36,447 nt of DNA from Salinivirgaceae bacterium (lineage in GTDB: Bacteria > Bacteroidota > Bacteroidia > Bacteroidales > Salinivirgaceae), in contig JAQVXQ010000015.1 of assembly GCA_028709085.1 (NCBI GenBank), forward strand, positions 1 through 36,447, written 5' to 3'. Shown here in pieces: positions 5,961-31,152 of the stretch (its first letter is position 1; every line of letters starts with the position of its first letter). A program made the position numbers and the translations under genes. The notes below the pieces were generated by a model, which worked only from the letters and a program-made list of their open reading frames with translations, ran no database searches and was not told the DNA's origin.

Positions 5961-8900
5961 CTACGATTTTTTTTGTTTTGTGTTTTTCTTTAAATAGGTT
6001 GTAATTTCAGGAGAAGCGTTGTTCCAACAGATATTTATTTCCTTAAGTAACTCTTTGTAGTCAACAACCTCGTTTTCTAGAGCTGCTTTTTCGATTTCTA
6101 AGGCCGATGTTTGCGCTTTTTTCATTCCCAGATATCTAAAAGAGGTTTTAAGAGTGTGCGAAAGAATCCGAATTTCGTCTATTTTACCCGATTTTATACC
6201 GGTTTCTAACTCTTTTATTTGCGTGGGAATAGCGTTTGCATACATACTGAGGTATCGAATAAAACGATCAATTTTTCCCGTTGAGTTTTTCCATAATTGT
6301 TGTGGATCGAGTGCTGCAAACGAAGGCATTTGCTGTTCATTTATATCTATGTAGTCGCCTAATTTAGTGGCATTTGCATTTGTTAAGTTAAGTACTAGTT
6401 CAAATAAATGCCGTGGAGCAAAAGGTTTTGTTATATATTCGTTCATCCCATGTTGTAAGCATTTTTCCCGTTCATCGCTCATGGCGTGTGCCGTCATCCC
6501 CAGAATAGGGACATTGCATAATGGGGCGCTTAGCCTATTTCGAATAACTTTGGTGGCGGTGTAGCCGTCCATTTCGGGCATTTGAATGTCCATTATTATT
6601 ATATCATAAAGTACCCGACTTGCTGCATCAACTGCCTGCATGCCGTTCATGGCTGTTTCAATTTTAAATTGGCTGCTAAAGGAAGTGAGGGTGTTTTCTG
6701 CTAAGGCGAGGTTGATTTCGTTGTCGTCAACAAGCAAAATTTTAATATCCTTGGATAGAGAGTGTGGGTTTATTGTGTAGTCTAATTTATTCTCCTCTAG
6801 GGGGTTTGCATCTGATTTTGGATACGGTATTATAATGGAAAAACAACTCCCTTTATCAATTTCACTGGTGACTTTAATGGTTCCTTTTTGTTTTTCGACC
6901 AGTCGTTTTACAATGGTTAATCCTAGTCCAGTTCCACCAAATTTTCTTGTGGTTTCATTGCTGGCTTGGGAAAAAGAATCGAAAATAGTTTCCAGTTTTT
7001 CGGGTAGTATCCCGATTCCGGTATCCATGATATTAATTTTCAATTCGATTGTTTCTTCGTTGGAACTTTGATCGGTAATATCGATGGTTATTGTTCCGGA
7101 GGGCGTAAATTTAATGGAATTTCGAACTAAGTTTGACAATATTTGGTTGAGTCGAACAGGATCACCTATAATAACGTTATGACTGATATTATTAAATGAT
7201 AATTCCAACGATAATCCATGTTTTGCAGCCTCTATTTCCATGTGATTCCCTGTAGTACGGATGGTTTTTACGAAATCGAAAGGTACATTTTCAAATTCCA
7301 ATTTGTCGGCTTCGATTTTAGAGAAATCTAAAATATCGTTTATTATAACTTTTAAGTTGTCTGAACTGTCTTTTATGTAACGTAGGTATTTCTGTTGTTG
7401 GTTGTCAACACGTGTATTTAAGAGTAAATTTGTATATCCGGTAACAACATTGAGTGGTGTTCGTATTTCGTGACTCGTGTTGGCCAAAAATTGTTCTTTC
7501 ATACGTGCTCCTTGACTAATTTTTATATTCGCTAGTTCAAGTTCTTCTTTCTGTTTTCGGAGATCGGCTACTCGTTCTTTTATTAAGGATTCTAGTCGCC
7601 GCTCGTTTGTTCGTATCGACTTTACTCTAAGTTTCCAGATTAAAACTGTTAGGGATATAATTAATACAATCATGCTGATAACAAACCAATTACGTGCGTA
7701 ATATGGTTTTAGGATTACAAAACTAAAACAAGCTACATAGTTAGAAACGTTTTGAGCAGAGTACCATGATCTTACTTTCATGGTGTATGTTCCTGGGGGT
7801 AGATTAGTGTAATTAACAAAACGTTGTTTTGTGGGAGGCATCCAGTTGGGGTCAAATCCTTGAAGGTAAAATTGGAGTTTTAGTTTTTGCGGTGTTTGGT
7901 AATCGTTAGCTCCAAAATAGAAGGTTAGATTGTTTTCGCTGTATGGAAGCTCGAGTCCAAGAGGTAACAAGCTCCAGTTTGAAATTGAATCGGTGTATTT
8001 GTCCCATTTTACTTTGGAATAGAAGAGCTCAATATCTCTAATGTATGCTTTTGCCAACGGATTTTGAATACTATCGGTTAAAGGATTGTATTTTGTTGCG
8101 CCCTGTTTTGTTCCAAATAAAAGTTCTCCCGAACTGTTTGAGGCAACGGCATTTAGATTGCATTCAATTCCAAAAAATCCATCGTGGCGACGGTAACTTT
8201 TCTTGGATATTGGAGATGATGCGGTATCTAACGATAAAATATCAATGCCTCGTTCTGTTCCCAAAACTAAATTCCCAAACAGGTCGTTGGTGACAGAATA
8301 AACTATATTGGCGTCCGATATCTTATCAATGGGTAGATGGTATAGTGAATCGGTATCGAATCGGGTAATCCCGTTTTCTGAAATAATCCAAAGACGATCG
8401 TTTTTGTCGATCACCAACGATGTGATTAGATTTGAGATGAGCCCATTCGCTTCAGAGTAGTTTTTAATTTTATGATTCGAAATGATCGATAATCCTTGAT
8501 CCGTTGCAATGAATAGATCCCCTTTTTTGTTTTCAATAATGTCATATACATGATTGCCTGCCAAACCGTTTTTTGTGTTTAGTTTGGAAACACTTTTATT
8601 TTCAATACGATAGAGACCGTGTCCAAATGTTCCAACTATAAAATTGTCATTTGTTGTAGTGTATGAGCAACTAACGGGTTCTTTTATATTTATTGTTTCT
8701 CGTAATGCGATATCCACCTTCCCTTTTTGAATAAAATCGACTCCGCGGTCAGAACCCAACAAAAGAGTTCCTTTTTTATTTGAAGTAACGGTGCGAATAA
8801 CGCTGTTCGTTAGTCCATCTTTTTTTGAGTAATGTTTTCTACTCTTGTTTTTAACTACTAGTAAGCCATTTCCGTTGGAACCTATGCAAATTCGATTATC

Positions 8901-9956
8901 TTTCGTTACATGAAGAGCAAGAATAGAAGTGGTTTCTGAAAACTCCGGAAGTTGCATTTTTGTAAATCGAAATCCTTTAAATACATAAGCACCGGCACCA
9001 TCTGTTCCAACCCACATGTTAAAGTAATTGTCGCGATAAATGGAGTAAATTCTATTATAACCAATCCCTTGATCGGAGTCAATGTTTAAAATTCTATCGT
9101 TGGAGATTATACTAACTCCTCCTTCATCGGTTCCTGCCCAAATATTCCCAAAGCGGTCTTCGGCAAGCGAAATAATGTGGTCATCAGAAAGTCCTTCTTT
9201 AGTTGTAATCGTTTTATAGTAATAGTCTTCACGCGTAATTAGTCCGCGTGTGGTTCCGATCCAGATTCGATCTTGAGAATCAAAAAATACCAATTCAATA
9301 TTCGATCCATCGGTTAAAGGTAGTTCCACTTCTTCTAATTCATGTCCATCGAAAATGAGCAAAGGCTGATTAAAAACGGTTATGTACAATAAATTGTTGG
9401 AGCGGGCAGCAATCTTTGAGATTTGTTTATTCTCTAATTCTGGAATTAAATTGAAACACCCCAATGAATCATTATAACCATATACCCCTTTGTTTGTGGC
9501 CATTACAATAATTCCATCGGTACGTTGCGTGATATTCCAAACAAACATGGAGTCGAGAAGTTCTCCGTTTTTTGGAATGGTTAAGTTTTTTCCGTTGTAA
9601 TAGCGAACTCCTTTATTGGTTCCAATCCACATACGGGCATTTTTGTCGTGAAAAAGCGAAAGTGTTGCGGTTCCTGGCAATCCTTCGCTTCGACCAATAT
9701 ATTGTGGGAAATCGCCCGATAGAATTGTAACGCCTCCTCGTTCAGTTGCTAACCAGATTCTTCCTAAGCTATCTTGTGTAATGTCAAACACTTGGCTTTG
9801 AGATAGTCCTTCTGGCAAGGAATATCTTTCAAAGTTGTAGATTTGGGCGGATGAGTTTAGAAGTGTCAAAAAATATAATAGGGAAGCGTTACAAAGCTTT
9901 AAAAATGGCCTATTTTTAAGGGATTTGAAGAAAAACGATAATTTCATTATTTCCAT
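5961..9956 (-). CDS. Hybrid two-component sensor (Reg_prop, Y_Y_Y, kinase, receiver, HPt)
   Basis: A 1331-residue one-protein phosphorelay. An N-terminal signal peptide (about residues 10-38) is followed by roughly 600 periplasmic residues of two-component-regulator propeller repeats (GRIWLAT, ARMWIGTN, DRIWIGTT, GNIWAGTD and similar), forming beta-propellers. A Y_Y_Y domain spans about 673-740 and a single membrane helix about 754-776. A HisKA domain has phospho-acceptor His829 in SHEIRTPLN. HATPase_c has N and G boxes (DTGIG, GGTGLGL). A receiver has Asp1123 in IIMDIQMPEMDG and the last domain is an HPt with His1267 in LSHTLK. Unlike the classical Bacteroides HTCS proteins it has no AraC-type HTH, so output must pass to another protein. 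No polysaccharide utilisation genes are nearby, so the ligand is unknown. Confidence 0.93.
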   Translation of the reverse strand: MEIMKLSFFFKSLKNRPFLKLCNASLLYFLTLLNSSAQIYNFERYSLPEGLSQSQVFDITQDSLGRIWLATERGGVTILSGDFPQYIGRSEGLPGTATLSLFHDKNARMWIGTNKGVRYYNGKNLTIPKNGELLDSMFVWNITQRTDGIIVMATNKGVYGYNDSLGCFNLIPELENKQISKIAARSNNLLYITVFNQPLLIFDGHELEEVELPLTDGSNIELVFFDSQDRIWIGTTRGLITREDYYYKTITTKEGLSDDHIISLAEDRFGNIWAGTDEGGVSIISNDRILNIDSDQGIGYNRIYSIYRDNYFNMWVGTDGAGAYVFKGFRFTKMQLPEFSETTSILALHVTKDNRICIGSNGNGLLVVKNKSRKHYSKKDGLTNSVIRTVTSNKKGTLLLGSDRGVDFIQKGKVDIALRETINIKEPVSCSYTTTNDNFIVGTFGHGLYRIENKSVSKLNTKNGLAGNHVYDIIENKKGDLFIATDQGLSIISNHKIKNYSEANGLISNLITSLVIDKNDRLWIISENGITRFDTDSLYHLPIDKISDANIVYSVTNDLFGNLVLGTERGIDILSLDTASSPISKKSYRRHDGFFGIECNLNAVASNSSGELLFGTKQGATKYNPLTDSIQNPLAKAYIRDIELFYSKVKWDKYTDSISNWSLLPLGLELPYSENNLTFYFGANDYQTPQKLKLQFYLQGFDPNWMPPTKQRFVNYTNLPPGTYTMKVRSWYSAQNVSNYVACFSFVILKPYYARNWFVISMIVLIISLTVLIWKLRVKSIRTNERRLESLIKERVADLRKQKEELELANIKISQGARMKEQFLANTSHEIRTPLNVVTGYTNLLLNTRVDNQQQKYLRYIKDSSDNLKVIINDILDFSKIEADKLEFENVPFDFVKTIRTTGNHMEIEAAKHGLSLELSFNNISHNVIIGDPVRLNQILSNLVRNSIKFTPSGTITIDITDQSSNEETIELKINIMDTGIGILPEKLETIFDSFSQASNETTRKFGGTGLGLTIVKRLVEKQKGTIKVTSEIDKGSCFSIIIPYPKSDANPLEENKLDYTINPHSLSKDIKILLVDDNEINLALAENTLTSFSSQFKIETAMNGMQAVDAASRVLYDIIIMDIQMPEMDGYTATKVIRNRLSAPLCNVPILGMTAHAMSDEREKCLQHGMNEYITKPFAPRHLFELVLNLTNANATKLGDYIDINEQQMPSFAALDPQQLWKNSTGKIDRFIRYLSMYANAIPTQIKELETGIKSGKIDEIRILSHTLKTSFRYLGMKKAQTSALEIEKAALENEVVDYKELLKEINICWNNASPEITTYLKKNTKQKKS

Positions 9957-10102
9957 CTTTATTTATATGGCTACATATTAGTTCATGAATTGATAAAATT
10001 AATTATAATTCTTTATTATTCTTATTTAAAAGGAGTCAATCTTAAGTAGTTTTGATTGCCATTATTTGAAATTTAGCTTTTTGATGCAATTTTGTCACAA
10101 AA

Positions 10103-10137
10103 AAAATCCGAAAACCTATTTTGTGTTTCCGGATTTT
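10103..10137 (-). terminator. Terminator after the padR-pspC operon
   Basis: Inverted repeat AATCCGaAAAC / GTTTcCGGATT with one mismatch and a 9-base loop. On the minus strand it is followed by eight T residues. It begins 19 bases past the stop of the PspC-domain gene. Confidence 0.75.
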
Positions 10138-10155
10138 GTTGGATTATTTAACGAT

Positions 10156-11682
10156 TTATTCTATTGTGTTTTCGCCTTGTTTTATGTATTTGTTGAAAAC
10201 GGATGTGTTTTTGAAATTAATCGAATTGTTTATATTTAAAAGGTTGTTTTCCAAAGAGTGATCTAGGTAAATGGTTTTTCCCTCTGGAACGTACAGTGTT
10301 AAATTTAGTTTTTTGTTTTGCCAAAAATCGGATAATTTTGATTCGAAAAACGTATTCAAAAGAAGAGTGTCTCCTGAAATGGAGTAATTATAAATGATTT
10401 CTTGTGCGTTTTCATCCGCTTTTTCCTGTTTTGTGTTTTGTGCGGTTTTCTGGATTTTAAGTTCAAATTGGGCACTATTCGATTTTTCAATGGTAAGTTT
10501 GGGTTTGATTATTAAAATGGATTTGTTGTCGTCTGTTATGACTCCGAGGTGTTTTGAATCTATTTTTAAATCATAGTTTTCATTGTAATGGTATTTTAAT
10601 CCCTTAATTATAAGAGAATCCCTATTATTTACTTCAATAATTGATTTAGATTCAATTTCTCCTTCATATACAGAGAATGGACTTTTCAAAACAAAGAATA
10701 GCGTGAATAGCACAATGGCAAGAATCCAAACTCCAATTCCGAATGAGACAAATCCACCCCCATGATGTTTTTTACCCGAAAGTGCTCTTATTAATGCAGC
10801 AATTAGTAAAAATAATGGAATTATAATAATTAAAAATAATGCAATTAAAACTATTTTCACTGTTGTTCCTCCTGCCATAATGGTATCTAAAATAGGAAGG
10901 TTAAGTGATAATATTCCCAAATCTCCGATATCGAAAAACAGAATGGATATCATGAAAACTAGTAATACTAATCCCGTAATTAGAAAAGCAAAGCCAATTA
11001 TGGCACCTATAAAACTAAAGAAAGCTGTTAAAATTATGCCAAGCCATGAAAAAAAACGTTCAATAAGTGACGTGGCTTGTTTTGGGACATCACTTTTTGC
11101 AAGCTCCTCAAAACGTTGTTTTACGCTTTCAATGTTGTTGCGAATATTCTTTTCAAACTCTTCTTTATCAAAGGTTTCTCCACTCATTTGGGAGTATTCG
11201 TCGGGTGTTTTTGCTTCCGGTACAATGACCCAAAGGAGTATGTATAATAGAACTCCAAATCCCCAGAAAGCTGAAAACGTCAATGTTATAAGTCTAATTA
11301 CCCATACGTCGATTCCCACATAGTTCGCAATACCGGAACATACTCCGCCCAAAATAACATTTTTTGGATCTCGAAATAGGGTTTTGTGTCCTTTTTTACG
11401 ATCTTTTGATTTTGTTTGATTGGTTTCAATCTCTTCGGGTTCACCAATGGTTTGGATAACGGATTGAACATCTTCAATGGTTATTACCTGTTTGGTTGCG
11501 GAGAGTTTTGATTGAAAAAGTTCGGCTATTCGAGCTTCAAAATCCTCCATAGTTTCGTCGGTTTCACCGATTTCTCCAAAACTAAATTTCAGTTTTTTGA
11601 TATAACGGGACAGCTTTTCATAAGCATCCTCGTCAATATGGAATACTATTCCTGCGATATTTGCGGTTGTGGTTCTTTTCAT
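10156..11682 (-). CDS. PspC-domain membrane protein
   Basis: A 508-residue integral membrane protein, probably an envelope-stress component. The N-terminal 95 residues are soluble, acidic and helical. A PspC domain follows at about 97-155 (RDPKNVILGGVCSGIANYVG start, first membrane helix to WVIVPEA). Three more hydrophobic segments lie near 205-250, 275-300 and 315-340. The last 160 residues are beta-rich and predicted extracytoplasmic, like the LiaF/adhesin-type tails of such proteins. It begins two bases after the padR stop, so the pair is co-transcribed and probably autoregulated by PadR. The PspC fold is clear; the physiological stimulus is not. Confidence 0.88.
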   Translation of the reverse strand: MKRTTTANIAGIVFHIDEDAYEKLSRYIKKLKFSFGEIGETDETMEDFEARIAELFQSKLSATKQVITIEDVQSVIQTIGEPEEIETNQTKSKDRKKGHKTLFRDPKNVILGGVCSGIANYVGIDVWVIRLITLTFSAFWGFGVLLYILLWVIVPEAKTPDEYSQMSGETFDKEEFEKNIRNNIESVKQRFEELAKSDVPKQATSLIERFFSWLGIILTAFFSFIGAIIGFAFLITGLVLLVFMISILFFDIGDLGILSLNLPILDTIMAGGTTVKIVLIALFLIIIIPLFLLIAALIRALSGKKHHGGGFVSFGIGVWILAIVLFTLFFVLKSPFSVYEGEIESKSIIEVNNRDSLIIKGLKYHYNENYDLKIDSKHLGVITDDNKSILIIKPKLTIEKSNSAQFELKIQKTAQNTKQEKADENAQEIIYNYSISGDTLLLNTFFESKLSDFWQNKKLNLTLYVPEGKTIYLDHSLENNLLNINNSINFKNTSVFNKYIKQGENTIE

Positions 11683-14380: not shown

Positions 14381-16822
14381 ATGAGGTTATATAAAATATT
14401 TTCGATCGTTTTAATTATAACTTTTTTTTGTAATCCTATTCATGGATTCAAAAGAGAGGTGCGTGTTGGTGTTTATCAAAATCCGCCAAAAATATTTATG
14501 AATTCAAACGGGCAAGCCGATGGATTTTTTATCGATATACTGGAACGTATCGCTGAAAAAGAAGATTGGACAATTACCTATGACTTCGCAGATTGGGAAA
14601 CGCTATTAAAAAAGCTGGATAACGCTGAGATTGACCTTCTTCCGAATGTTGTGAAAAATGATAACAAAGATTCGCTCTATGATTTTAATGAAATTGCTTT
14701 TATTGACACCTGGCTTGAAGTTATATCTTTAAAAAGTTCATTAACGGATTCTACTATTGTTGCAACTAATCCCAAAATCGGAGTACTATCTTCGTCTTTT
14801 CAGGAGGGTTTTATAAAAGAGCACTATTCAAATTACCCCGATTCTCTTCTGTTTTTTTATGACACTTATTTAGAAGCTGTTTCTGCATTGCTTTCAAAAG
14901 AAATAGATTTTATTGCTGTTTGTCGATTTTTCGAATATACCGATTTTTTCGATAATGCAAATATGTCTGTTACGAAAGTATTAAAGCCTACCCTTTTGTA
15001 TGTTGTTGCCCCCAAAGAAAAGAATCGCGATTTATTGAAAAGAATAGATTTATATTTAACTGAAATCAAAAACGATACGGATTCTTTTTATTATAAGACA
15101 TTGGGGAAATGGTTAAAGGTTCCCGCCAAGTTTTTATCTATTGATGCTATAATTTTAATCGTCTTTTTATTAGGAGTGGTTCTTGTTTTTGCATTATGGG
15201 GGATTCTAGTTATGCTTAGAAAGGTAAAAGCAAAAACTAAGACAATACATGAAATAAACGAGGATTTAAAAAATTTGAACAAGATTTTTTTAGATATCAG
15301 CGAAACTGTACCGGTTGGGATATATCGTTTAAGCACCAAGTTTAATAACAATTTAATTGATATTAAGAATCTGGAATTTAAAATGATATACACAAATACT
15401 GTTTTTCAAAAACTACTTGATTATACCGTCGAAGATATTGAACAAGGAGTATTTAATATTATTGGTAAAGTTTTTCCCACTGATTTACAGGGGTTTGCGG
15501 AAGAAAACAGAAGAGCCATTACAATGTGTGAGGTTTTTAAGTGGGAAGGAAAGATGGTTATAGACAATACATTACGTTGGTATCGTATAGTGGCTGTTCC
15601 CAAAAAAGTAAACTCATCGGAGATTTTATGGACAGGCGTAGTGAATGATTTGACGCACGAGAAGGATATTGAACTTAAATTACGGGAAAGTGATAATTTG
15701 TTTCACTCTTTAGCTGAGATTTCACCCGTGGGCATATTTAGAACTCGACCCGATGGATATACAACTTATGTAAATGCCCGTTGGTGCGAGTTGTCTGGGT
15801 TGTCATATAAACAAGCACTTGGCTGGGGATGGCTCGATGCCGTTCATCCTACAGAACGGGAACGAACTGAGCTGAAATGGAACAAAAAAGTTGAAAAACA
15901 ACAAGTGTCGGCGGATGAATATCGCTTTTATCGTTCCGATGGCGTACTTGTCTGGGTTTTAGGGCTTGCTGTTCCAGAAGTTGTTGATGGAGAGATAGTT
16001 GGGTATATTGGAACCATCACAGATATAACTGAACGCAAAGAGGCTGAGATGATTTTACGCGCAAAGAATGAGGAGCTTAAAGTTGCTAAAGAACGGGCAG
16101 AGGAGAGCGATAGATTGAAATCTTCGTTTTTGGCTAATATAAGTCACGAAATTAGAACGCCCATGAATGCAGTGTGTGGTTTTGCCTATTTACTTCAAAA
16201 TGCCAAGGAGGAAGAGCGAAGACAAGAGTATATAGAACTGATACTTTCTAATTCGCAGGAGCTCCTTGAAATTATTAACGATTTAGTAGATTTGTCAAAA
16301 ATTGATACAAAACAGGTAGAGATTAAAAAAAGTAATTGGTTAATAAATAGTATAATTGATGAGCTAAAAGCAATTCATTATCAATTGATAAAGAATAAAG
16401 GAATAAATCTGAAAGTTACAAAATCGCTTTCCGATACAGAGGATCAGATTTTTACAGATGGGTTGAAATTAAAGCAAGTGTTAAATATTCTAATAATAAA
16501 TGCGATAAAAAACACCACCCATGGTAAAATTGAATTTGGGTATCAAGTGGAAGAATCGCACATAGAGTTTTTTGTTACTGATACCGGAAATGGAATCCCC
16601 TTAACGTATTTAAATACAATTTTTGAAAAATTCCGACAGATTGACTCCCATAATTTTGCAAGTCGTCAAGGTACAGGAATTGGTTTGTCAATTGCTAAAG
16701 CATATGTGGAGTTACTCGATGGAAGAATATGGGTTGAATCAAAGGAGAATGTGGGATCGAATTTTTATTTTCGTATTCCCTTTGCTCCTAAATTAATACA
16801 CTATATAAAAAGAGATGAATAA
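14381..16822 (+). CDS. Sensor histidine kinase with solute-binding and PAS domains
   Basis: An 813-residue membrane kinase. Signal peptide (1-22), then a periplasmic SBP_bac_3 (HisJ/ArtJ-type) domain at about 25-245 beginning [13 protein letters not shown] and including [15 protein letters not shown], which suggests sensing of an amino acid or similar small ligand. One membrane helix lies at about 253-277. Two PAS domains follow (about 300-420 and 435-560; the second contains [12 protein letters not shown] and ends [13 protein letters not shown]), then HisKA with His589 in SHEIRTPMN, then HATPase_c with DTGNG and GTGIGLS. It lacks a receiver of its own; its last 8 bases overlap the next gene, a lone receiver, its likely partner. 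Confidence 0.93.
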
Positions 16823-17198
16823 AACAATTTACAATTGGACAGGAAAAACCATTTTATTAGTTGAAGATGATCAACCGAGTTATCTATTTTTAAAATACAT
16901 GATTGAGAGTACCAATGCAAAGTTTTTGTTGGCAAAAACAGGGGGTGAGGCATTATCGTTTTTTACGAATAAAGCCAAAATTGATTTGATTTTGCTCGAT
17001 ATCAAATTGCCCGATTTTAGTGGGTTAACTGTTGTGGAAGAGATCAGAAAAGCAGGATCGGAGATCCCAGTGATAGCTCAGACGGCCTATGCTTTAACGC
17101 TTGATCGAGAAAAAGCAATAGAAAGTGGGTGTAATGAGTATCTTATAAAACCATTGCATAGAGATGCTTTGTTTGAATTGATGGATCAATACTTGTAA
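16815..17198 (+). CDS. Single-domain response regulator (receiver only)
   Basis: A 127-residue CheY-like receiver with no output domain. Acidic pair at Asp18/Asp19, phospho-acceptor Asp62 in [11 protein letters not shown], Thr90 and Lys112 (YLIKPL) are all present, so it should be phosphorylatable. Its start lies inside the end of the upstream kinase gene, giving translational coupling. It probably acts as a phospho-carrier or by protein-protein contact, and could also feed an HPt protein. The sequence most resembles the receiver modules of hybrid kinases, so it may have split from one. Confidence 0.92.
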
Positions 17199-18296: not shown

Positions 18297-20456
18297 ATGA
18301 GAACGTTTTTAACCTTTCTTTTATTGTTAATAATATCTTTAACGACCAATTATAGGGTGCTGTCGAACAGTCAAGTTGATAGTCTTAAAAAACAACTTCT
18401 CTTTTGCACTGATAGTATTCAACGCGCCGACTTACTCCATGAAATTGCTCGCAATATATCATTAAATAAGGAGACAAACAATCAAACTACCATATATTTA
18501 GAGGAGCTACTACAACTCTCCACACGGATTAATTATGTTGAAGGGTTGGTTAAATATTATGATTTAGCGGGCCATTTTGATCGTAATAATAGCGATTATG
18601 CCTCCGCCTTGCAGAAGCATTTTAAAGCATTACAATTGGCTGAGGAAAACAAATTAATTGAATATTTACCCCGAATTTATAATAATATTGGTGTTGTTTA
18701 TCGTCGTATTGATGATTTTACAAATGCCATTAATTTTCATTTGAAATCTTTAAAAGTGGCCGAGATGGTGAATGATAAATCATCCATAAGTTATGCCTAC
18801 AATAGTATTGGGAATATTTATTCTTTATCAAAGCAGTATGATAAAGCCTTGGAGTTTTTTCAAAAATCATTGGAATTTGGTCAGCAAAATAAGAACAAAC
18901 GCAGTATCGCCATTAATCTAAATAATATTGGTGAAGTGTATGAGTTTATGGAACAGTATGAAAAAGCGCTGGAGTTTTATTCAAAATCGCTCTCCTATAA
19001 TTTGGAAATCAATAGTATAAAAGGCTTGGGTATCTCCTATGATTGTATCGGGAATATTTATCGCAAGAGTGGGAAATATGAAAAAGCACTCTCATACTAT
19101 TTGCAAGGTGTGGAAATGCATAAAAAGCATGGGGAGGAACTTTTTATGGCCATAAGTTTGAAAAATATTGGGATCATATATTTAGAATTAGACAGCATGA
19201 AATTTGCTGAAAAGAATATTGATCAAAGTATGAAATTGGCACTCTCTATAGCATCAAAATCGACCATTGCCGAGCTATATAAAATAAAAGTCCAAATTAG
19301 TGAGAGGAGAAATGATCCTGTTAAAGCTCTTTATTATGAACGGCTTAGGACTCAATATAATGACAGTGTTTGGAATGAAAACAACAGTATTAATATTGCT
19401 AAATTACAAGCAATATATAATAGTGAACGACAGTTAGAGGCCATTTTAAAACTGAATAGAGAGAATGAATTGAATGAGAAAATTATTGAACGACAAAACC
19501 GATTGAATTTTACGTTGATCATAATTATTTCACTAGTTTTAATTTTCTCCTTGTTGTTGTATCGCGAATATCAGATTAAAAAGAAAAACAATAATCAATT
19601 AAAAGCACAGGCAAACGTAATTTCGAGAAAGAATAAAGCTTTGGTTCATCAGAAGAAACGAATACAGCTAATCCATACTCGAATTACGGATAGTTTGAAC
19701 TATGCCCAACGGATTCAAAGAGCATTATTGCCATCCAATGAGATGTTAAGTTCAATTTTTAAAGATTATTTTGTTCTTTATATGCCTTTGGAAGTAGTAA
19801 GTGGAGATTTTTATTGGGTGTCGAAGCAAAAAAACCAAACATTAATTGTTGCTGCCGATTGTACCGGACATGGAGTTCCCGGAGCCATGATGAGCATGTT
19901 GGGAATATCCTATTTGAATGAGCTTGTACTGCGATCGGATGTTAAAACCCCCGCCGATTATTTGAACGAACTGCGTAATTTGGTTATTCTTTCGTTAAAA
20001 CAGAATGGAAGCTTTCGCGAGATAAAGGATGGAATTAGTTTGTCGTTTTGTATTTGCGATTCAGAAAATAAGACCCTTCAATTTGCTGGAGCTCAAAGCT
20101 CTGTAGTTACCACCTATTATGATGATACAAAAAATGAATATTCCATTGTAGAACACAAGGGTGAAAATATGCCCATAGGGTATTTTCCGCGAATTAAACC
20201 ATTTGAAAATCATATAATTCCCACCGAAAACATTCGTAATTTGTATTTATTTAGCGATGGGTACATGGACCAATTTGGAGGTAAACGAGGACTTAGATAC
20301 AAAAAGAAAACATTTATTTCAATCATTGAAGCTAATTTGGCAAAGTCACTACAGGAACAATGCGTTATTTTTGAAAATGAGTTCCAAACATGGAAGGCCG
20401 ATAGAGACCAAATTGATGACGTTTTGATATTAGGGGTTAAGTTATGCGATTATTAA
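18297..20456 (+). CDS. TPR-domain SpoIIE/PP2C-type serine phosphatase
   Basis: A 719-residue membrane-anchored phosphatase. Signal sequence (1-23), then tetratricopeptide repeats over about 70-350 with recurring Y(D/E)KALEF and NNIG motifs, presumably exported. One membrane helix at about 402-424 is followed by a short basic coiled coil. The PP2C-like SpoIIE domain spans about 485-718. Metal-binding Asp motifs are VSGDFYW, AADCTGHGVPGAMMS, LFSDGYMDQ and DQIDDVLILG. In the family this fold dephosphorylates anti-anti-sigma or other phosphoproteins; no sigma/anti-sigma gene is adjacent, so the substrate is unknown. The stop overlaps the convergent Crp/Fnr gene by 4 bases. Confidence 0.92.
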   Translation: MRTFLTFLLLLIISLTTNYRVLSNSQVDSLKKQLLFCTDSIQRADLLHEIARNISLNKETNNQTTIYLEELLQLSTRINYVEGLVKYYDLAGHFDRNNSDYASALQKHFKALQLAEENKLIEYLPRIYNNIGVVYRRIDDFTNAINFHLKSLKVAEMVNDKSSISYAYNSIGNIYSLSKQYDKALEFFQKSLEFGQQNKNKRSIAINLNNIGEVYEFMEQYEKALEFYSKSLSYNLEINSIKGLGISYDCIGNIYRKSGKYEKALSYYLQGVEMHKKHGEELFMAISLKNIGIIYLELDSMKFAEKNIDQSMKLALSIASKSTIAELYKIKVQISERRNDPVKALYYERLRTQYNDSVWNENNSINIAKLQAIYNSERQLEAILKLNRENELNEKIIERQNRLNFTLIIIISLVLIFSLLLYREYQIKKKNNNQLKAQANVISRKNKALVHQKKRIQLIHTRITDSLNYAQRIQRALLPSNEMLSSIFKDYFVLYMPLEVVSGDFYWVSKQKNQTLIVAADCTGHGVPGAMMSMLGISYLNELVLRSDVKTPADYLNELRNLVILSLKQNGSFREIKDGISLSFCICDSENKTLQFAGAQSSVVTTYYDDTKNEYSIVEHKGENMPIGYFPRIKPFENHIIPTENIRNLYLFSDGYMDQFGGKRGLRYKKKTFISIIEANLAKSLQEQCVIFENEFQTWKADRDQIDDVLILGVKLCDY

Positions 20457-21139
20457 CTTAGTTTCTCGATTAACCGGAGTTTTTCTAGATCAACTACCAT
20501 TATCTCTTTTGTTTTTAAGGAAATTAGACCTTCTTTTTCAAATTCTTTTAAAAATTTCACCGTGCTTTCAACTGTTATGGAGGCGAAATCGGCAATGTCC
20601 TGTCGGGTGAGATATTGAAATAAATTATTGGAAATAAAATCTTCCGATGATAGATAAAGTATAGTTGATGCCAGCTTTCCACGCATTTGTCGATATGAAA
20701 TATTATGCAGAATGTCAAGGTATCTTCGTTCCGTTTTGTAGTTTCGAGAAGTGATCTTTAGTGCAAATTCAGGATTCTTTACCAACAGCTCTTTCAGTGC
20801 CTCCTTATCGATCATACATATAGTTGTATCTTTCATTGCCGTTGCTGAATAGTTATAAATCGGTTCCCCAAAGACAGAGGAGAATGCCAAGAAATCACCT
20901 TCCTGTGAAATGCTGATATTCAGTTGTTTTTGGTGGCCTGTTTGAAGAAAAACTTTTACCAAACCATCAATTACAAAAAGCACATAGGGCGCAAACGCAC
21001 CTTGTTTAAAAATGGTTTCTCCTTTTAGATACACGAGGCGTGTTTTCTTTTCTTCGATAAACGCAAGTTCATGAGCATCGAGATAACGAAAGCATCCTAT
21101 CGAATTTAAATTGCTATTGGTGGATTCTTGATTGTTCAA
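20453..21139 (-). CDS. Crp/Fnr-family transcriptional regulator
   Basis: A 228-residue regulator with an N-terminal cyclic-nucleotide-binding-type beta roll (ETIFKQGAFAPYVLFVIDGLVKV, here spanning about 40-62) and a C-terminal HTH_Crp (LTRQDIADFASITVESTVKF, about 176-195). The cAMP-contact segment GEPIYNYSATA is only loosely CRP-like. There is no N-terminal Cys cluster, so it is not an oxygen-sensing FNR. Its ligand is unknown; redox, nitrosative or starvation signals are typical for this subgroup. It is divergent from the large transporter gene and could regulate it. Convergent with the TPR/PP2C gene, with a 4-base overlap. Confidence 0.9.
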   Translation of the reverse strand: MNNQESTNSNLNSIGCFRYLDAHELAFIEEKKTRLVYLKGETIFKQGAFAPYVLFVIDGLVKVFLQTGHQKQLNISISQEGDFLAFSSVFGEPIYNYSATAMKDTTICMIDKEALKELLVKNPEFALKITSRNYKTERRYLDILHNISYRQMRGKLASTILYLSSEDFISNNLFQYLTRQDIADFASITVESTVKFLKEFEKEGLISLKTKEIMVVDLEKLRLIEKLS

Positions 21140-21556: not shown

Positions 21557-24500
21557 ATGTCAAAAATTAAGAAGTTTGGAACTTTTGGTGGGGTTTTTAC
21601 CCCATCGATACTCACTATTCTTGGAGTAATAATGTATTTGCGTTTTCCAGTCATTCTTGGTCAGACTGGATTAATCAATACCATTGGAATTATAGTAATA
21701 GCGCATATTATCTCTATTACTACAAGTTTGAGTGTGGCATCGCTTTCAACGGATAAACCGGTGCGCAACGGTGGCACTTATTTTATGATATCGCGCAGTT
21801 TGGGACTGCCCATTGGTGGAACATTAGGTTTGGCACTTTTTGTGGGGTTGTCGTTTAGCGTAAGTCTTTATTTAATTGGGTTTTCTGAAAGCTTCTTACA
21901 ATATTGGGATATTGAGAATAGTAAAAATGCAATTCGTATAACCGGCACCATTGTATTGATTGTCGTAACCACCATAACTTTCATTAGCACATCATTGGCC
22001 ATTAAATCTCAATACATTATAATGGGGTTGATTGTTTTGTCGTTTCTCTCCATTCTTTTGGGAAACCATGAGTTTACACCCACGACCATTAGTTTAAAAC
22101 CCATTGCTACGGCGGCACCGTTTATGGTCCTTTTTGGTATATTTTTTCCGGCAGTAACTGGATTTGAAGCTGGAGTTTCCATGTCGGGCGACCTAAAAGA
22201 TGCAAAAAAATCACTGCCTTTGGGTGCAATTATGGCGGTTGGTGTTGGTTTTGTAATCTACATACTATTTGCTCTTTTCTATACTTTTACCGTTGATGCT
22301 CATGCACTTGCCAATGATCCACAGATTCTTTTTAAGATATCGCTTGTTCCTGTGTTAGTAATTGCGGGTATTTGGGGAGCAACGCTTTCGTCAGCGTTGG
22401 GTAGTATTTTGGGCGCACCGCGGATTTTGCAGGCAATTGCCATGGATAAAATCGCTCCAAAGATTTTCGCAAAAGGAACCGGCAAAACCAATGAGCCGCG
22501 CAATGCATTACTCCTTGTGTTTTTGATTGCCGAGGTGGGGATATTAATAGGCGAGCTTGATTTAATTGCACGTATTGTCTCCATGTTTTTTATTACCACC
22601 TACGCTTTTCTAAACTTAGCATCGGCGATTGAAAGTTGGTCGAGTTCCGATTTTCGACCCGCATTTAAAGTCCCTCGATTTGTGAGCGTTTTAGGAACAT
22701 TGTCCGCATTTATTGTAATGATATTGCTCGATTTCCTTGCTTTGGCTGGCGCAACGGTAGTGTTGGGCGTGCTCTATTTTTATTTGCAACGCAAAGAACT
22801 TATTTTGGAAAGCGGCGATGCTTGGAGCAGTTTCTGGACAAGTTTGGCAAAGCGATCTTTGTTGAATTTGAGTGTTCGGAAACCAGATAAACGAAATTGG
22901 CGACCAAATATTATTTTGTTTAGTGGTGGCGAAAAAGCACGTCCACATCTTGTTGAAATAGGTCTCTCTTTAACAGGTAAACTGGGCGCATTGACTGATT
23001 TTAACTTGTTAATCGATGGAAAGCAATCAATGCAATTGGATGCACCAAAAAAGAGCAACAATCTCAATTATTTTGTCCGTGAATTAAGTTGTCCCTCCAT
23101 TCAAGAAGGCATTGAAACGATTACAAGCGTCTATGGTTTCAGCGGATTTGAGCCCAATACGGTGTTAATGGGATTCATTAAAGATCCAACACATTTGCAG
23201 TTTTTCAATGATATTATTGGGGGATTAAAGTTGAAAAAGCTCAATGCTATTTTTCTGAATTACAATAAAAACAAAGGCTTTGGTAAGAAACAAAATGTGG
23301 ATGTCTGGTGGAACGGAAAAGGACGACATCTCAGTTTCTCGTTAAATGCACTGCAGTTTTTACTTTCAGATCCTACTTGGCTCGATACGCAAGTTCGAAT
23401 TATGGTCATTAACAGCGATACCTCGCAAGAGGAGCATATTATTCGAAATACCAATTCCATACTTTCAGAAAAACGTATGAAAGCCGAAGTGTGCGTCTTG
23501 AGCGACGATTTTGGTTCGCGGAGTACACACGATATTATACAATCCGAGTCCAACGAGGCTGATTTAATAATTCTAGGTGTTTCACAAAAGAAAGCTCTTT
23601 TTACCGATACCATTGTTGCTGATATTTTAAGTTACGAACCTAGTTCCTTGATTTTAAGTTCAACCGACGAATTTGAAGAGATAACCATTGTTGAGAAAGT
23701 GGCGCAAAAGAGCATTGAAACCAAACCAATGCCCTCGGTCGCAATCTTGCAGGTTTTACCGCCGCTTGGAAATAAAGTGGTGCAAAACCGAGTTGAGGGG
23801 TTGGACTTGCGTTTTCAGAGTTATGCTCAAGAGTTTGCCAATATATCGATTACAAAATCGGTGTATATTCTGAAAACCATTTTTAGTGATTTGGCGGAAA
23901 TTGTTTCCAGCAATAAGAGTAATTTGGAACGGATTGTTTCTGAAAGTGATAGCCATGAAATTAAAAAAGCAATTATTCAAAATCATTATGTTTTCTTACG
24001 AAATGTAAGTCACTATCTGGAAAACAAAATCATAGCTTTAGTTAAAGAGAGTGAAGAGCTTCTTAATCAGAGTATTTCAAAAGTAATTACACAGCTTGGA
24101 AACACTTTATACGAAACCCCGGATTCAATTACTTTGTCGTATTTTGTTGTCTCCAAGAATCGGAACAAAGATGTAAAGGTGCGTTTTCATTCGTTGCTCA
24201 ATTATCTTTTCGAGCACGATGTGAAGCCAGAGATTAGGTCACAACTTATTCATTTAGAGGATTTAACGTTGGGTCAAATTGTGGCGGTTAAGCAGTTGGT
24301 TTTGGGGGTTAACGATACCTATGAAAAACTATTGCTTAACTTACAGAACGATATTCAACCCTTTTTAACGGAATTTGATGGTGTGCTTGCTTCGTTTAGC
24401 GATATTGACGAACAACTTAGTGTATTTAAAGCCACTGCAACGGGCAATATTCACGCGGTATTTCGTGCGGCAACCCATCAATTGGCAACGAATTTTAATG

Positions 24501-26554
24501 ATCCCAAAAACGTCAAATATCCAAAAATGGATAAAGTCGTCTGTTCTGAAAATGCTGAGTTTTTTGATTCTTTTGGTCAAAATTGGGGCGATGGAATCAA
24601 TCAGCTTTGCAATACAATTTACTTGAATGCCATTATATTGTCGAAAAAGAATATTGCTAAAAACTTGATCGATAGCGGAATAGAAAAAGTTGGAATACAA
24701 ATATCGGAGGGATTGCTTCAACCCATCAAAATTTTAGAAAGCAACTTGAATTTGGTTCGCCAACGGAGCGATCAAAAATTGGATTCACCAAAATTTGCCG
24801 TTGATTTTTCGGTGCAGAAGATCTTTGATGAGTCGTACGAAAAAATTACCCAAATTATTAATGGATTGCCCGAAGAGTTTGTTATTCCGGTTTCAATATA
24901 CAGCAATGCCGAATTGATAGCCTTTAACGATTATAATTCAACGACCATCAATCTTCGCAAGTTGGCAAATTTTGCCCTCGATACCCTTTTTGCCGAGCCT
25001 TTTTATCGCGAAATTGAGCAGTTGGGTGAAAGTGTTAACAATGCTCTTTTGGAGTGCAAAGAGGCCAATAGTTTGCTTGTTTTTCAACTTAACAATCGCG
25101 ATTTTGATGCCGATTCTTTGGATGTGGATTTAAAATTCGATGTGGAGATATTCGACAAACTACAAAAGCAGATTGAGGTACAAAAAAGCATGGTTAATAC
25201 GGCTTTGCAGCGCATCGACCACTATTCAAAACTACACTTAAACGAGTCGTTTTCAAAGTTGTTTTATCATTCCATTGTTGATTCTGAAACCAAAATATCC
25301 AGCGAGAAACGAAATCAAAATAAACAGAAATTACGAATTGCCATCACCCATAATATTGCTGCTATACAACGGTTTGTGAATCGTGGCATAATTAATCTAT
25401 TAAATAGCACAAGCAAAGGTAGTTTACTTTCAAAAAAGTATTTTGCGAAAGCAGAAAAGCGTCAAACACAGATTCAGGAAGTGCTTAATTTGCGCGATCA
25501 AGTTAAATCCAACGCAAAAGTATATAACTCTATTCCAGTGTTTTATAGAAATTTAATGAGCAGTAGTTCAAAAATTCACGATGAGTTTTGGATTCCGCGA
25601 AACAAGGAGATGCAACAACTCAGAGATTCATTGCAACGACATCGCAATGGAATTGGTGGTGCAGTAATTGTCAAAGGCGCGCACGGGTCCGGTAAGACTA
25701 CCTTTTCGCGTTATGCAACCTCGCATCTGTTCCGACAGGGGAATGTTTTTTGGATAAATCCGCCTAAACAAGGCTCAGTCAGTGTCGCTCAGTTTTTAAC
25801 CCATTTGCAAGAACAAATTGCGGATATGGTCGATTTTAACTCCATATTTAGCAATCTGCCGTTTGAAAGCGTTGTTGTAATGAATGATCTTGAACTCTGG
25901 TGGGAGCGAAATCCCAATGGATACGCCGTGATGAATACGATTATTGAACTTATTCGGAACTTTGGCAATAAAATTCTTTTCATCTTAAATATCAATAATC
26001 ATTCGTTCAATTTAATAAAGCAAAGTCTTCCTTTGGAGGAGAATTGTTTGGCAATTATTGATTGCGAACCGTTTAATGCAAAAGAGATTCAACAGTTGAT
26101 TTTGAGCCGACATAAATCGAGTGGATTAACGCTGACGTATGGGCATCGATCCGAGGAGTCTGTCTCCCAACTCACCCTATCGTTGCTTTTTAATGCGTAT
26201 TTTGGTGTCTCCGGAGGAAATCCAGGTGTAGCGCTCAATAGCTGGAGATATTGCATTACCAATATTCAGGGTGATTCGGTGTTTATTAAAAAACCAAAAA
26301 CCTTTAATGCTGATGTTTTGATGAATCTCTCCCCCGATTGGTTAATTACGGTGGCGCTCTTTATTCAACACAAAAACATGGATTCCGATAAGCTTTCTAG
26401 GGTGCTGTATTGCGAAAAATCACACGCCGAGAATGTAATGCGAGTTTTAAATAATTCAGGAATTATTGTTGCTAAAACTAAAACTACCTACACGCTTGAA
26501 CGTTCCATTGAGCCGATGCTTGTGGATGCATGTTTGAAAAAAGGATTACTTTAA
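21557..26554 (+). CDS. Cation-chloride-cotransporter-like permease fused to a STAND/AAA-type NTPase
   Basis: A 1665-residue protein. Residues 8-415 are an APC-fold permease with about 12 membrane helices; the start FGTFGGVFTPSILTILGVIM, then MYLRFPVILGQTG, is the helix-1 signature of the SLC12 (Na-K-Cl / K-Cl) family. Residues about 430-715 match the SLC12 cytosolic domain: NWRPNIILFSGGEKARPHL, then IMVINSDTSQEE, RMKAEVCVL and the IIQSESNEADLIILG segment. Residues about 715-1350 are helical, charged and unrecognised. The C-terminus is a P-loop NTPase with Walker A GAHGSGKTT (Lys1380), Walker B VVVMNDLE (Asp1444, Glu1446), an SGGNPG motif near 1555 and a winged-helix-like end. Prokaryotic SLC12 proteins normally end after the cytosolic domain. 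I infer nucleotide-controlled ion transport; the substrate ions are not readable. The next gene follows after 10 bases. Confidence 0.88.
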   Translation: MSKIKKFGTFGGVFTPSILTILGVIMYLRFPVILGQTGLINTIGIIVIAHIISITTSLSVASLSTDKPVRNGGTYFMISRSLGLPIGGTLGLALFVGLSFSVSLYLIGFSESFLQYWDIENSKNAIRITGTIVLIVVTTITFISTSLAIKSQYIIMGLIVLSFLSILLGNHEFTPTTISLKPIATAAPFMVLFGIFFPAVTGFEAGVSMSGDLKDAKKSLPLGAIMAVGVGFVIYILFALFYTFTVDAHALANDPQILFKISLVPVLVIAGIWGATLSSALGSILGAPRILQAIAMDKIAPKIFAKGTGKTNEPRNALLLVFLIAEVGILIGELDLIARIVSMFFITTYAFLNLASAIESWSSSDFRPAFKVPRFVSVLGTLSAFIVMILLDFLALAGATVVLGVLYFYLQRKELILESGDAWSSFWTSLAKRSLLNLSVRKPDKRNWRPNIILFSGGEKARPHLVEIGLSLTGKLGALTDFNLLIDGKQSMQLDAPKKSNNLNYFVRELSCPSIQEGIETITSVYGFSGFEPNTVLMGFIKDPTHLQFFNDIIGGLKLKKLNAIFLNYNKNKGFGKKQNVDVWWNGKGRHLSFSLNALQFLLSDPTWLDTQVRIMVINSDTSQEEHIIRNTNSILSEKRMKAEVCVLSDDFGSRSTHDIIQSESNEADLIILGVSQKKALFTDTIVADILSYEPSSLILSSTDEFEEITIVEKVAQKSIETKPMPSVAILQVLPPLGNKVVQNRVEGLDLRFQSYAQEFANISITKSVYILKTIFSDLAEIVSSNKSNLERIVSESDSHEIKKAIIQNHYVFLRNVSHYLENKIIALVKESEELLNQSISKVITQLGNTLYETPDSITLSYFVVSKNRNKDVKVRFHSLLNYLFEHDVKPEIRSQLIHLEDLTLGQIVAVKQLVLGVNDTYEKLLLNLQNDIQPFLTEFDGVLASFSDIDEQLSVFKATATGNIHAVFRAATHQLATNFNDPKNVKYPKMDKVVCSENAEFFDSFGQNWGDGINQLCNTIYLNAIILSKKNIAKNLIDSGIEKVGIQISEGLLQPIKILESNLNLVRQRSDQKLDSPKFAVDFSVQKIFDESYEKITQIINGLPEEFVIPVSIYSNAELIAFNDYNSTTINLRKLANFALDTLFAEPFYREIEQLGESVNNALLECKEANSLLVFQLNNRDFDADSLDVDLKFDVEIFDKLQKQIEVQKSMVNTALQRIDHYSKLHLNESFSKLFYHSIVDSETKISSEKRNQNKQKLRIAITHNIAAIQRFVNRGIINLLNSTSKGSLLSKKYFAKAEKRQTQIQEVLNLRDQVKSNAKVYNSIPVFYRNLMSSSSKIHDEFWIPRNKEMQQLRDSLQRHRNGIGGAVIVKGAHGSGKTTFSRYATSHLFRQGNVFWINPPKQGSVSVAQFLTHLQEQIADMVDFNSIFSNLPFESVVVMNDLELWWERNPNGYAVMNTIIELIRNFGNKILFILNINNHSFNLIKQSLPLEENCLAIIDCEPFNAKEIQQLILSRHKSSGLTLTYGHRSEESVSQLTLSLLFNAYFGVSGGNPGVALNSWRYCITNIQGDSVFIKKPKTFNADVLMNLSPDWLITVALFIQHKNMDSDKLSRVLYCEKSHAENVMRVLNNSGIIVAKTKTTYTLERSIEPMLVDACLKKGLL

Positions 26555-26564
26555 ACCCAAATCC

Positions 26565-27269
26565 ATGATTGTTAAGATATTAAGTGTTATTGTAGCCATT
26601 TTTATAGGATTCCGAGTTCTTTCGTTCATCGTTGGTCGATTGCATTATTTGAATCGAATTCGTCATCGAATAAATTTAGTTCTGCCCATTATTGAGTTGT
26701 TGGTTTGGATTGGTACTATTATGTGGATTGTAAAATTGATTTACGAAACCCATAACTATGAGTTGCTGATCTCTTTGGGTGTGATTTTTCTCCTTTTTAT
26801 TGTACCGGCATTCTCGTTACTGCGTGATTTTATTTCCGGCATTTCCTTAAAGGCACAAAGCACGATATTTTTAGGTGCATTTTTGGAAGTGAATCAGATT
26901 CAGGGCGAGGTAGTTAAAGTGGGACATTTCGTGGTTGAACTAAAGGATTCTCATGGCGATATTAGAACCTATCCATACAGTCAAATTCGATCGAAAGTAA
27001 TTTTGAGAACCAGCGATAATGTTCATTTGGTAAAGCTTAAACTAGAATTTCAGATTCCAGATAACAATCACATAAACGATACCTTGAAAACTATAATTCA
27101 TGTTATCATAAACACGCCATGGTGCGCGCCATCCAAAATGCCCGTTGTCGATCAAGTGGTGTCCAATAATGGAGTTTCCAATGTTATTGTGGGAGTTTAT
27201 TCGCTGAATAAATCATATGGCGAAAAAATCAAAGGTGTGGTTGATTTATATTTGCAGCAAAACTCATAG
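26565..27269 (+). CDS. MscS-like membrane protein
   Basis: A 234-residue protein with three predicted membrane helices (about 2-24, 40-62 and 70-92). The third runs into LLRDFISGISLKAQ, resembling the pore-lining helix and exit of the mechanosensitive channel MscS. A beta-domain-like segment follows (EVNQIQGEVVKVGHFVVELK), with a TYPYSQIRSKVI string where MscS proteins have the conserved PNS motif. That motif and the usual GD of the beta domain are altered, so it is a divergent member and channel activity is not assured. It starts 10 bases after the transporter-NTPase gene and is surely co-transcribed, which suggests a shared role in osmotic or volume control. Confidence 0.75.
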   Translation: MIVKILSVIVAIFIGFRVLSFIVGRLHYLNRIRHRINLVLPIIELLVWIGTIMWIVKLIYETHNYELLISLGVIFLLFIVPAFSLLRDFISGISLKAQSTIFLGAFLEVNQIQGEVVKVGHFVVELKDSHGDIRTYPYSQIRSKVILRTSDNVHLVKLKLEFQIPDNNHINDTLKTIIHVIINTPWCAPSKMPVVDQVVSNNGVSNVIVGVYSLNKSYGEKIKGVVDLYLQQNS

Positions 27270-30717: not shown

Positions 30718-31152
30718 TTAATCAGGTAAATAAATTAAATCGATACCGGCTTTTTCAAGCAATCTTTTTCCGTCGTCGCTGCGATAGCTTTCGGAGTATA
30801 CGACTCGAATTATTCCAGCTTGGATAATCAATTTTGCACATTCGATGCAGGGTGCTGCTGTTACGTACAGCGTGGCTCCATCGCTTGAATTTGCGCTTTT
30901 TGCCACTTTTGTTATTGCATTTGCCTCGGCGTGTAAAACATAGGGTTTTGTGGTATCGCCGTCTTCACACTCGTTTTCAAATCCAGAAGGCGTTCCGTTG
31001 TACCCATCGGAAATAATCATTTTGTCTTTCACCAATAATGCGCCTACTTGACGACGAATACAATACGAATTTTGAGCCCAAATGCGCGCCATCTGTAAAT
31101 AACGTTTATCGAGTAATAATTGTTTGTTCTCGTTGTAAGCTTTCGTATTCAT
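30718..31152 (-). CDS. dCMP/cytidine deaminase-fold zinc enzyme
   Basis: A 144-residue protein matching deoxycytidylate deaminases (ComEB-like), which supply dUMP for thymidylate synthesis. Zinc site: His74 with Glu76 (LHAEANAI) as proton shuttle, and Cys102/Cys105 in APCIECAK. An N-terminal RRQVGALLV segment and GYNGTPSGFENECEDG are typical for dCMP deaminase. It heads a probable operon with the S41 protease and perhaps ahcY, with a TAnnTTTG promoter 57 bases upstream. Confidence 0.92.
   Translation of the reverse strand: MNTKAYNENKQLLLDKRYLQMARIWAQNSYCIRRQVGALLVKDKMIISDGYNGTPSGFENECEDGDTTKPYVLHAEANAITKVAKSANSSDGATLYVTAAPCIECAKLIIQAGIIRVVYSESYRSDDGKRLLEKAGIDLIYLPD

Follow-up and report, generated by a model that had tools for sequence, protein, structure and literature searches.

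The locus described here raises the question of why a bacterial relative of the cation-chloride cotransporters (CCCs) should carry a P-loop NTPase at the end of the same chain, and what this NTPase may do to ion transport. The window, namely the whole 36,447-nucleotide stretch of contig JAQVXQ010000015.1 from a Salinivirgaceae bacterium (GCA_028709085.1), contains on its plus strand a single open frame (21557-26554, stop codon 26552-26554) encoding a fusion protein of 1665 amino acids (aa). This protein comprises a CCC-type permease domain with 12 transmembrane (TM) segments (residues 1-412, 21557-22792), an SLC12-type cytosolic domain (residues 416-712, 22802-23692), a variable linker (residues 713-739), a long helical region with two beta hairpins in the predicted model m673dd18102e2 (residues 740-1333, 23774-25555), a P-loop NTPase domain (residues 1334-1583, 25556-26305), and a winged-helix-like tail (residues 1586-1661, 26312-26539). 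A second gene on the same strand (26565-27269), which starts 10 base pairs after the end of the fusion gene, encodes a 234-aa protein of the MscS family (PF00924, above cutoff). A first-pass annotation of this DNA had already described the frame as an SLC12-type cotransporter with its cytosolic domain joined to a C-terminal P-loop NTPase, and we confirmed that this frame is intact and conserved in relatives; the MscS-like gene, which that annotation missed, is the most informative clue. The two genes are best read as an osmotic or ion-homeostasis module, with the NTPase as the likely link between an MscS relative and an ion transporter.

Regarding the reality of the fusion, an assembly join or a frameshift, which the first-pass annotation had named as a potential refutation, was rejected because full-length relatives are common. 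A protein search gave 1321 matches at E <= 1e-3, and among the 120 homologous proteins listed from it (own included), 117 match both the CCC and the NTPase profiles, and 113 of these are at least 1500 aa long, while at least 30 of the 198 genomes in our survey of the order (own included) carry a CCC match in an open frame of at least 1500 aa, one of them (G404) with an internal stop. The CCC and NTPase profiles were built from 30 CCC-fused proteins that are themselves among the 120, and the corresponding MscS-like profile from 12 MscS-like proteins, so that counts on the same sequences are partly circular. The genome survey suggested by the first-pass annotation thus showed that the fusion recurs across many Bacteroidota. 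At the level of the phylum, 177 of 296 genomes have some match to the CCC half and, among the matches listed, a frame of at least 1667 aa was found in only four (G000, which is the own genome, G236, G070, and G219). Within the same genus, the matches listed include only a 741-aa CCC with 32% identity (G409), and the closest unfused CCC genes listed share 53% (G140), 45% (G134), and 44% (G226) identity; a YhhN gene follows one of these three. Unfused CCC genes appear to be widespread, and the fusion appears patchy yet old enough to have relatives at 38-57% identity.

Conservation is uneven along the chain. In an alignment of 29 relatives, identity to the window protein was 70-87% in the TM part, 33-63% in the SLC12-type cytosolic domain, 7-33% in the linker, 16-37% in the helical region, 32-59% in the NTPase (residues 1334-1585), and 19-50% in the tail (residues 1586-1665). 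Within the helical region, the first and second halves are similar over 79 columns (hhalign probability 84.8%, E 6.5e-6, a pair run without a reversed control), and an internal duplication is possible. Several individual genes deserve mention. One fusion gene (L009) is split into overlapping open reading frames (ORFs) at 6001-10179 and 10139-10921 by a frameshift or a sequencing error. The own genome contains a second CCC of the same branch that runs off a contig end (L015, G000:C124, 1-2382, minus strand) and, on another contig, a helical-NTPase frame that is open at the contig end and followed 4 base pairs later by an MscS-like ORF (L016, G000:C176, 2-2752, plus strand); these may be the two ends of a second copy. 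L096 (G356 C147) and L001, each of 92,166 bases, are apparently the same contig.

The transporter half gave the clearest family assignment. The profile search proposed by the first-pass annotation matched residues 1-412 to AA_permease (E 2e-44), hydropathy resolved 12 segments, and the closest PDB sequences were animal CCCs, with KCC3 as the best match (2.6e-69) and NKCC1 next to it (3.1e-64). These matches extend into the cytosolic domain to near residue 649, and no PDB match reached the NTPase. The score against the curated K-Cl cotransporter model TIGR00930 was 357.9 bits, below its cutoff of 953.4, and the protein is therefore a family relative rather than an equivalent of the animal KCCs. 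Ser278 and Ser279 (22388-22393) align with Ser613 and Ser614 of human NKCC1, the serines that define Na+-coupled members, and form a putative Na+ site, at which KCC4 carries Gly-Ala. Tyr105, Pro198, Thr201, and Ile21 are also kept in the alignment to KCC4 and KCC3, and the first three of these correspond to what we take to be K+-site residues of human NKCC1 (the set N298, I299, Y383, P496, and T499). Ser278, Ser279, Tyr105, Pro198, Thr201, Thr20, and Tyr349 are invariant in all 30 aligned proteins (own included). According to one study, mutation of Ser613 or Ser614 lowers NKCC1 transport to below 10%, and N298 and I299 contact K+ through the backbone (PMC7889885). The transporter appears intact and resembles NKCC. 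As to the direction of flux, the conserved serines of the Na+ site suggest uptake coupled to Na+, and Na+-K+-Cl- cotransport, which would be electroneutral in an SLC12 member, is predicted for the SLC12-type half. Compared with the SLC12 members NKCC1 and KCC1-4, the fusion shares the 12-TM permease with its cytosolic domain, the NKCC-type Ser-Ser Na+ site, and three further site residues, and differs in its P-loop NTPase, which lies beyond the reach of the PDB matches. The human KCCs are described in PMC8280820 as regulated by phosphorylation and as holding a USP-like ATP/ADP pocket in the cytosolic domain.

The C-terminus is predicted to adopt an ORC/Cdc6-STAND-like fold, with a P-loop NTPase core followed by a winged helix, and structure prediction returned the P-loop fold that the first-pass annotation had proposed. 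The top Foldseek matches of the NTPase model were ORC/Cdc6 proteins with a winged helix. In the VIA-align fold comparison, in which rows with Z within 1 were counted as tied, the rows to 1w5t and 2qby run on into the tail (model elements 873-948). The alignment of relatives places Walker A (GAHGSGKT) at residues 1374-1381 (25676-25699) and the Walker B region (NDLELWWER) at residues 1443-1451 (25883-25909). Fourteen NTPase positions that we inspected keep the window residue in 98-116 of 117 sequences, and most sequences contain a G-x-P motif at residues 1554-1556 (the P in 98 of 117), presumably the motif of ORC/Cdc6- and STAND-type NTPases. The NTPase is predicted to resemble the AAA+ (ORC/Cdc6-like) and STAND classes, and this part of the earlier STAND-type assignment stood; with regard to STAND membership itself, it is only a candidate. 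All curated STAND models remained below cutoff (nSTAND_NTPase5 at 26.7 of 34 bits and nSTAND3 at 16.2 of 27.2), as did AAA_16 (30.9 of 32.6). Classical STAND proteins have C-terminal sensor repeats, and these are missing from the fusion because the chain stops at residue 1665, directly past the winged helix. The fusion thus has the predicted P-loop core, winged helix, and G-x-P in common with ORC/Cdc6 and the STAND NTPases Apaf-1, CED-4, and P. abyssi 2qen, but differs from them in falling below the curated STAND cutoffs, in lacking sensor repeats, and in being joined to an ion transporter. By membership, it is best described as an SLC12 relative fused to a predicted ORC/Cdc6-STAND-like NTPase that fails two defining STAND features. 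The ORC/Cdc6-like winged helix in the model may also evoke a membrane-tethered transcription regulator that binds DNA when the transporter is occupied; we regard this as very improbable because winged helices of STAND proteins are often merely structural, the region is only moderately conserved (19-50%), and tethering to the membrane would make DNA contact awkward.

The NTPase is not confined to CCC fusions. A search of the 296 phylum genomes with residues 720-1665 found matches in 54 genomes from 15 families. Apart from the own genome, these are 53 genomes, and the phylum loci considered below are the stretches around 54 places in them, G070 contributing two. In 38 of these 54 loci, the NTPase frame is free of any transporter part and is approximately 930-1045 aa long or, with some frames cut, 298-582 aa; these transporter-free NTPases pair with a canonical MscS. 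A CCC is attached in L037-L039. A different transporter, an antiporter of PF00999, is fused to the NTPase in L075 (3.7e-21), L080 (7.2e-19), and L088 (1.1e-18), and the antiporter part of L074 was recognised by our own profile (1.2e-139); a sub-cutoff NCBIfam match of L075 indicates the CPA2 type. The antiporter fusion has 30 listed relatives including the query, and the named ones belong to Melioribacter, other Ignavibacteria, and Sphaerochaeta (one partial relative). In L080, TrkH (2.9e-59) and TrkA follow the fusion, with relatives at equivalent places in L074, L075, and L088. The operon order in these four loci is a 414-422-aa protein with 7-9 TM segments, which in L080 has no Pfam match, then the fusion, an MscS-like gene, TrkH, and TrkA. 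L048, L082, and L089 each contain a Na_H_Exchanger gene two genes behind the NTPase. In L083 (5562-9959, minus strand), the same NTPase is fused to an 11-TM N-terminus that has no match in Pfam, in NCBIfam (NTPase part only), or to the antiporter profile, and TrkA and TrkH lie upstream. Beside standalone NTPases, two genes that lie upstream on the opposite strand are each conserved in 30 loci; in L041, these match N-acetylmuramoyl-L-alanine amidase and uridine kinase.

The helical regions of the CCC-fused, antiporter-fused, and standalone forms are homologous by pairwise hhalign (97.9, 97.7, and 99.4%), against 0.3-1.9% for six reversed alignments and 0.1% for the CCC and antiporter TM parts; one helical-NTPase module has been reused on two unrelated transporter families. 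In a FastTree phylogeny of 83 NTPase domains, the CCC-fused proteins (support 0.927) and the antiporter-fused proteins together with L083 (0.922) form separate groups, and the latter sits beside the standalone group (0.874). The simplest reading of this tree, which was midpoint-rooted and the rooting of which is not secure, is that of two separate fusion events. A neutral fusion without regulatory consequence would be compatible with the fast divergence of the helical region (16-37% identity to the window); however, the retention of the 14 inspected NTPase positions and the attachment of the module to two unrelated transporters make it hardly credible.

The most consistent companion of the NTPase is the MscS-like gene. 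Its product in the window has three TM helices, a beta domain, and an a/b domain, as in the MscS family. An MscS-like partner lies beside the NTPase in all ten genome-contig loci that reach the NTPase end; that of the own-genome piece L016 was recognised by blastp only (1.3e-10 to the L009 partner) and has no Pfam match. In the phylum, an MscS-family ORF adjoins or overlaps the NTPase ORF in 53 of the 54 loci, and in five of these (L077, L084, L086, L087, and L090) it lies upstream of the NTPase or overlaps its start; the single exception, L089, has at this place a 185-aa ORF with three TM-like segments. MscS accounted for 53 of 107 immediate neighbour ORFs versus one of 201 farther ones, and neighbour clustering found no other gene beside the fusion in at least three loci. 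At the order level, an MscS-like ORF lies downstream in 24 of 30 testable fusion loci, a set that excludes L116 and L126, which provide too little sequence, and includes L127, a contig piece, the CCC half of which would be on another contig. Open-frame starts were set mechanically, so some overlaps between neighbours (L054, L083, L086, and L090) are start artefacts, as is the long frame of L086 that overlaps the MscS ORF in another frame. An apparent NTPase-MscS protein fusion (P0123) was judged by eye to be a frame artefact, since it follows the sequence of P0122 and departs from it before the MscS part.

The pore helix of these partners varies with the company they keep. Gly and Ala make up a mean of 33% of TM3 in the 38 partners of NTPases without a transporter and 41% in the MscS-upstream group (six ORFs from five loci, including a distant second MscS of L077). 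The means are 12, 16, and 23% in three CCC-fused groups (12, 24, and 3 sequences, the window partner being in the group of 12), 15% in four CPA2-fused units, 16% in two units near an exchanger gene, and 24% in L083. The window partner, a short chain compared with the channels MscS, YbiO, and MscK, has Gly or Ala at only 3 of 25 TM3 positions versus 7-10 of 25 in the 38 partners of transporter-free NTPases, and its TM3 is thus not the Gly/Ala-rich helix of a typical pore. Since TM3 is poor in Gly and Ala in most transporter-linked units, the partner in these units may no longer be a canonical pore, and it may instead sense tension. These data also bear on a reading in which the NTPase acts on the MscS partner, by opening, closing, or assembling the channel, and the role of the fused transporter is chiefly that of a membrane anchor, by which uptake and release proteins are placed in one complex. 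The 38 phylum loci with a transporter-free NTPase beside an MscS with a Gly/Ala-rich TM3 are in its favour. We nevertheless consider it unlikely because most partners in CCC- and CPA2-fused units have no Gly/Ala pore helix, no partner lies next door in 6 of the 30 testable order-level fusions, and the transporter site residues are invariant in 30 of 30 proteins.

Between the two roles that the first-pass annotation had offered, an osmotic regulator fits the neighbourhoods found, with MscS and cation transporters, and an ion-flux effector of defence found no support. In the latter case, a STAND-like sensor would trigger a lethal ion flux upon phage infection, and a STAND-like NTPase joined to a membrane protein, a patchy distribution, and a weak mad8 match of the antiporter fusion L075 (6.1e-6) might be cited for it; the mad8 match is on the NTPase and was judged generic. 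PADLOC found no family for the CCC fusion (P0001), the MscS-like protein (P0124), or the relative P0120. It matched three of 11 window neighbours, namely, a TPR model (18297-20456), PDC-M60B (16815-17198), which is a response regulator, and dCTPase (30718-31152, 9.4e-32), a strong match to a gene that by Pfam is a cytidine/dCMP deaminase (PF00383). A typeIV_Cas11 match of P0122 (0.0027) was discarded; it falls in a helical stretch. With no sensor repeats, a strongly conserved transporter (TM part 70-87% identity), relatives beside MscS and K+/Na+ transporters, and window neighbours that by Pfam are mostly housekeeping and regulatory genes, we assign the defence reading a very slim probability. 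A CRP-family regulator lies divergent from the fusion gene (20453-21139, minus strand) and a TPR-SpoIIE phosphatase upstream of it (18297-20456, plus strand); neither belongs to a neighbour cluster common to at least three loci.

The reading that we favour, with about even confidence, is that of a conserved two-gene unit in which the nucleotide state of the NTPase and tension relayed by the MscS-like protein switch the flux of the SLC12-type cotransporter. We infer the contacts and gating steps as follows. The NTPase would bind ATP, perhaps hydrolysing it slowly, and change conformation or oligomerise, while membrane tension would alter the MscS-like protein, which, with its non-canonical pore helix, may mainly be a tension sensor or an anchor. 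Contact with this protein and the presence of ATP or ADP in the NTPase may together determine how the long helices are arranged; these helices would press on the cotransporter's cytosolic domain and switch uptake on or off, resulting in the control of turgor or volume.

Several observations weigh against this mechanism. That the MscS-like protein touches the fusion is suggested by gene order, and, since MscS is a heptamer and the CCCs are dimers, a direct complex would have a symmetry mismatch. No MscS-like ORF was found in the fetched downstream stretch of six of the 30 testable order-level fusions (L102, L111, L112, L115, L121, and L122, of which L111 and L122 are close relatives), and the CCC-fused partner of L038 keeps 36% Gly and Ala in TM3. 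L007 contains a CCC of the same branch with approximately 74% identity over the transporter part (6001-8691, plus strand), the frame of which stops at 896 aa, with no NTPase or MscS ORF at the locus and with thioredoxin-like and FGE-sulfatase-like ORFs behind it, owing to loss or an assembly fault; together with the six fusions, this indicates that the module can be dispensed with in cis. Nor is there an NTPase or MscS-profile ORF in the stretches fetched around the three closest unfused CCCs, and the transporter can therefore work without the module. At a K+-site position, the contact of which in NKCC1 runs through the backbone, the fusion has Thr20 where KCC4 has Asn. Lastly, Walker B lacks the canonical Asp-Glu pair (N-D-L-E-L-W-W), and the Walker A Lys is replaced in 12 of 51 loci outside the CCC-fused branch (two more lack the stretch), so that hydrolysis may not be general. 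The replacement is by Arg in nine of these 12 loci (L041, L042, L043, L064, L066, L067, L077, L084, L086, L087, L089, and L090), none of which is CCC-fused. Both Walker features are also unlike a power-stroke ATPase, which, together with the ORC/Cdc6 proteins with a winged helix as top Foldseek matches, makes it improbable that the NTPase is a chaperone-like or remodelling ATPase serving the assembly, clustering, or turnover of the transporter rather than its gating.

Related principles are known from other bacterial transporters. In TrkH-TrkA, flux is controlled by the nucleotide-binding TrkA, which has a Rossmann/RCK fold. PMC8280820 describes TeaD as a USP-type nucleotide-binding regulator of TeaABC. 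These systems have in common with the fusion an ion or solute flux under a nucleotide-binding cytosolic part, and they differ in using Rossmann/RCK or USP folds, in place of the P-loop NTPase and winged helix predicted here. We found no prior description of this system, and no P-loop NTPase in the same chain as a CCC, in the open-access PMC papers searched, which included neither subscription articles nor bioRxiv preprints.

It has long been asked how cells match ion transport to volume and turgor; cotransporters of animals rely on kinases, and bacterial channels and pumps look independent. If the favoured reading is correct, an SLC12-type cotransporter, a P-loop NTPase, and an MscS relative that are physically linked would be a compact and testable bacterial system, and would bear on the open question of whether CCCs respond to nucleotides. 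More tentatively, we propose that an NTPase family partnering MscS was fused at least twice to an ion transporter (SLC12 and CPA2), that a single molecule reads both nucleotide state and membrane tension and sets salt uptake together with release, and that the MscS relative turned from a pore into a tension sensor in the transporter-fused branches, which would represent a previously unrecognised class of bacterial osmotic control. The present results reveal a branch of MscS in which the pore helix has lost its usual sequence, and provide a likely context of osmotic or ion control for proteins that their sources at present call 'amino acid permease', 'amino acid transporter', 'AAA family ATPase', or 'hypothetical protein'.
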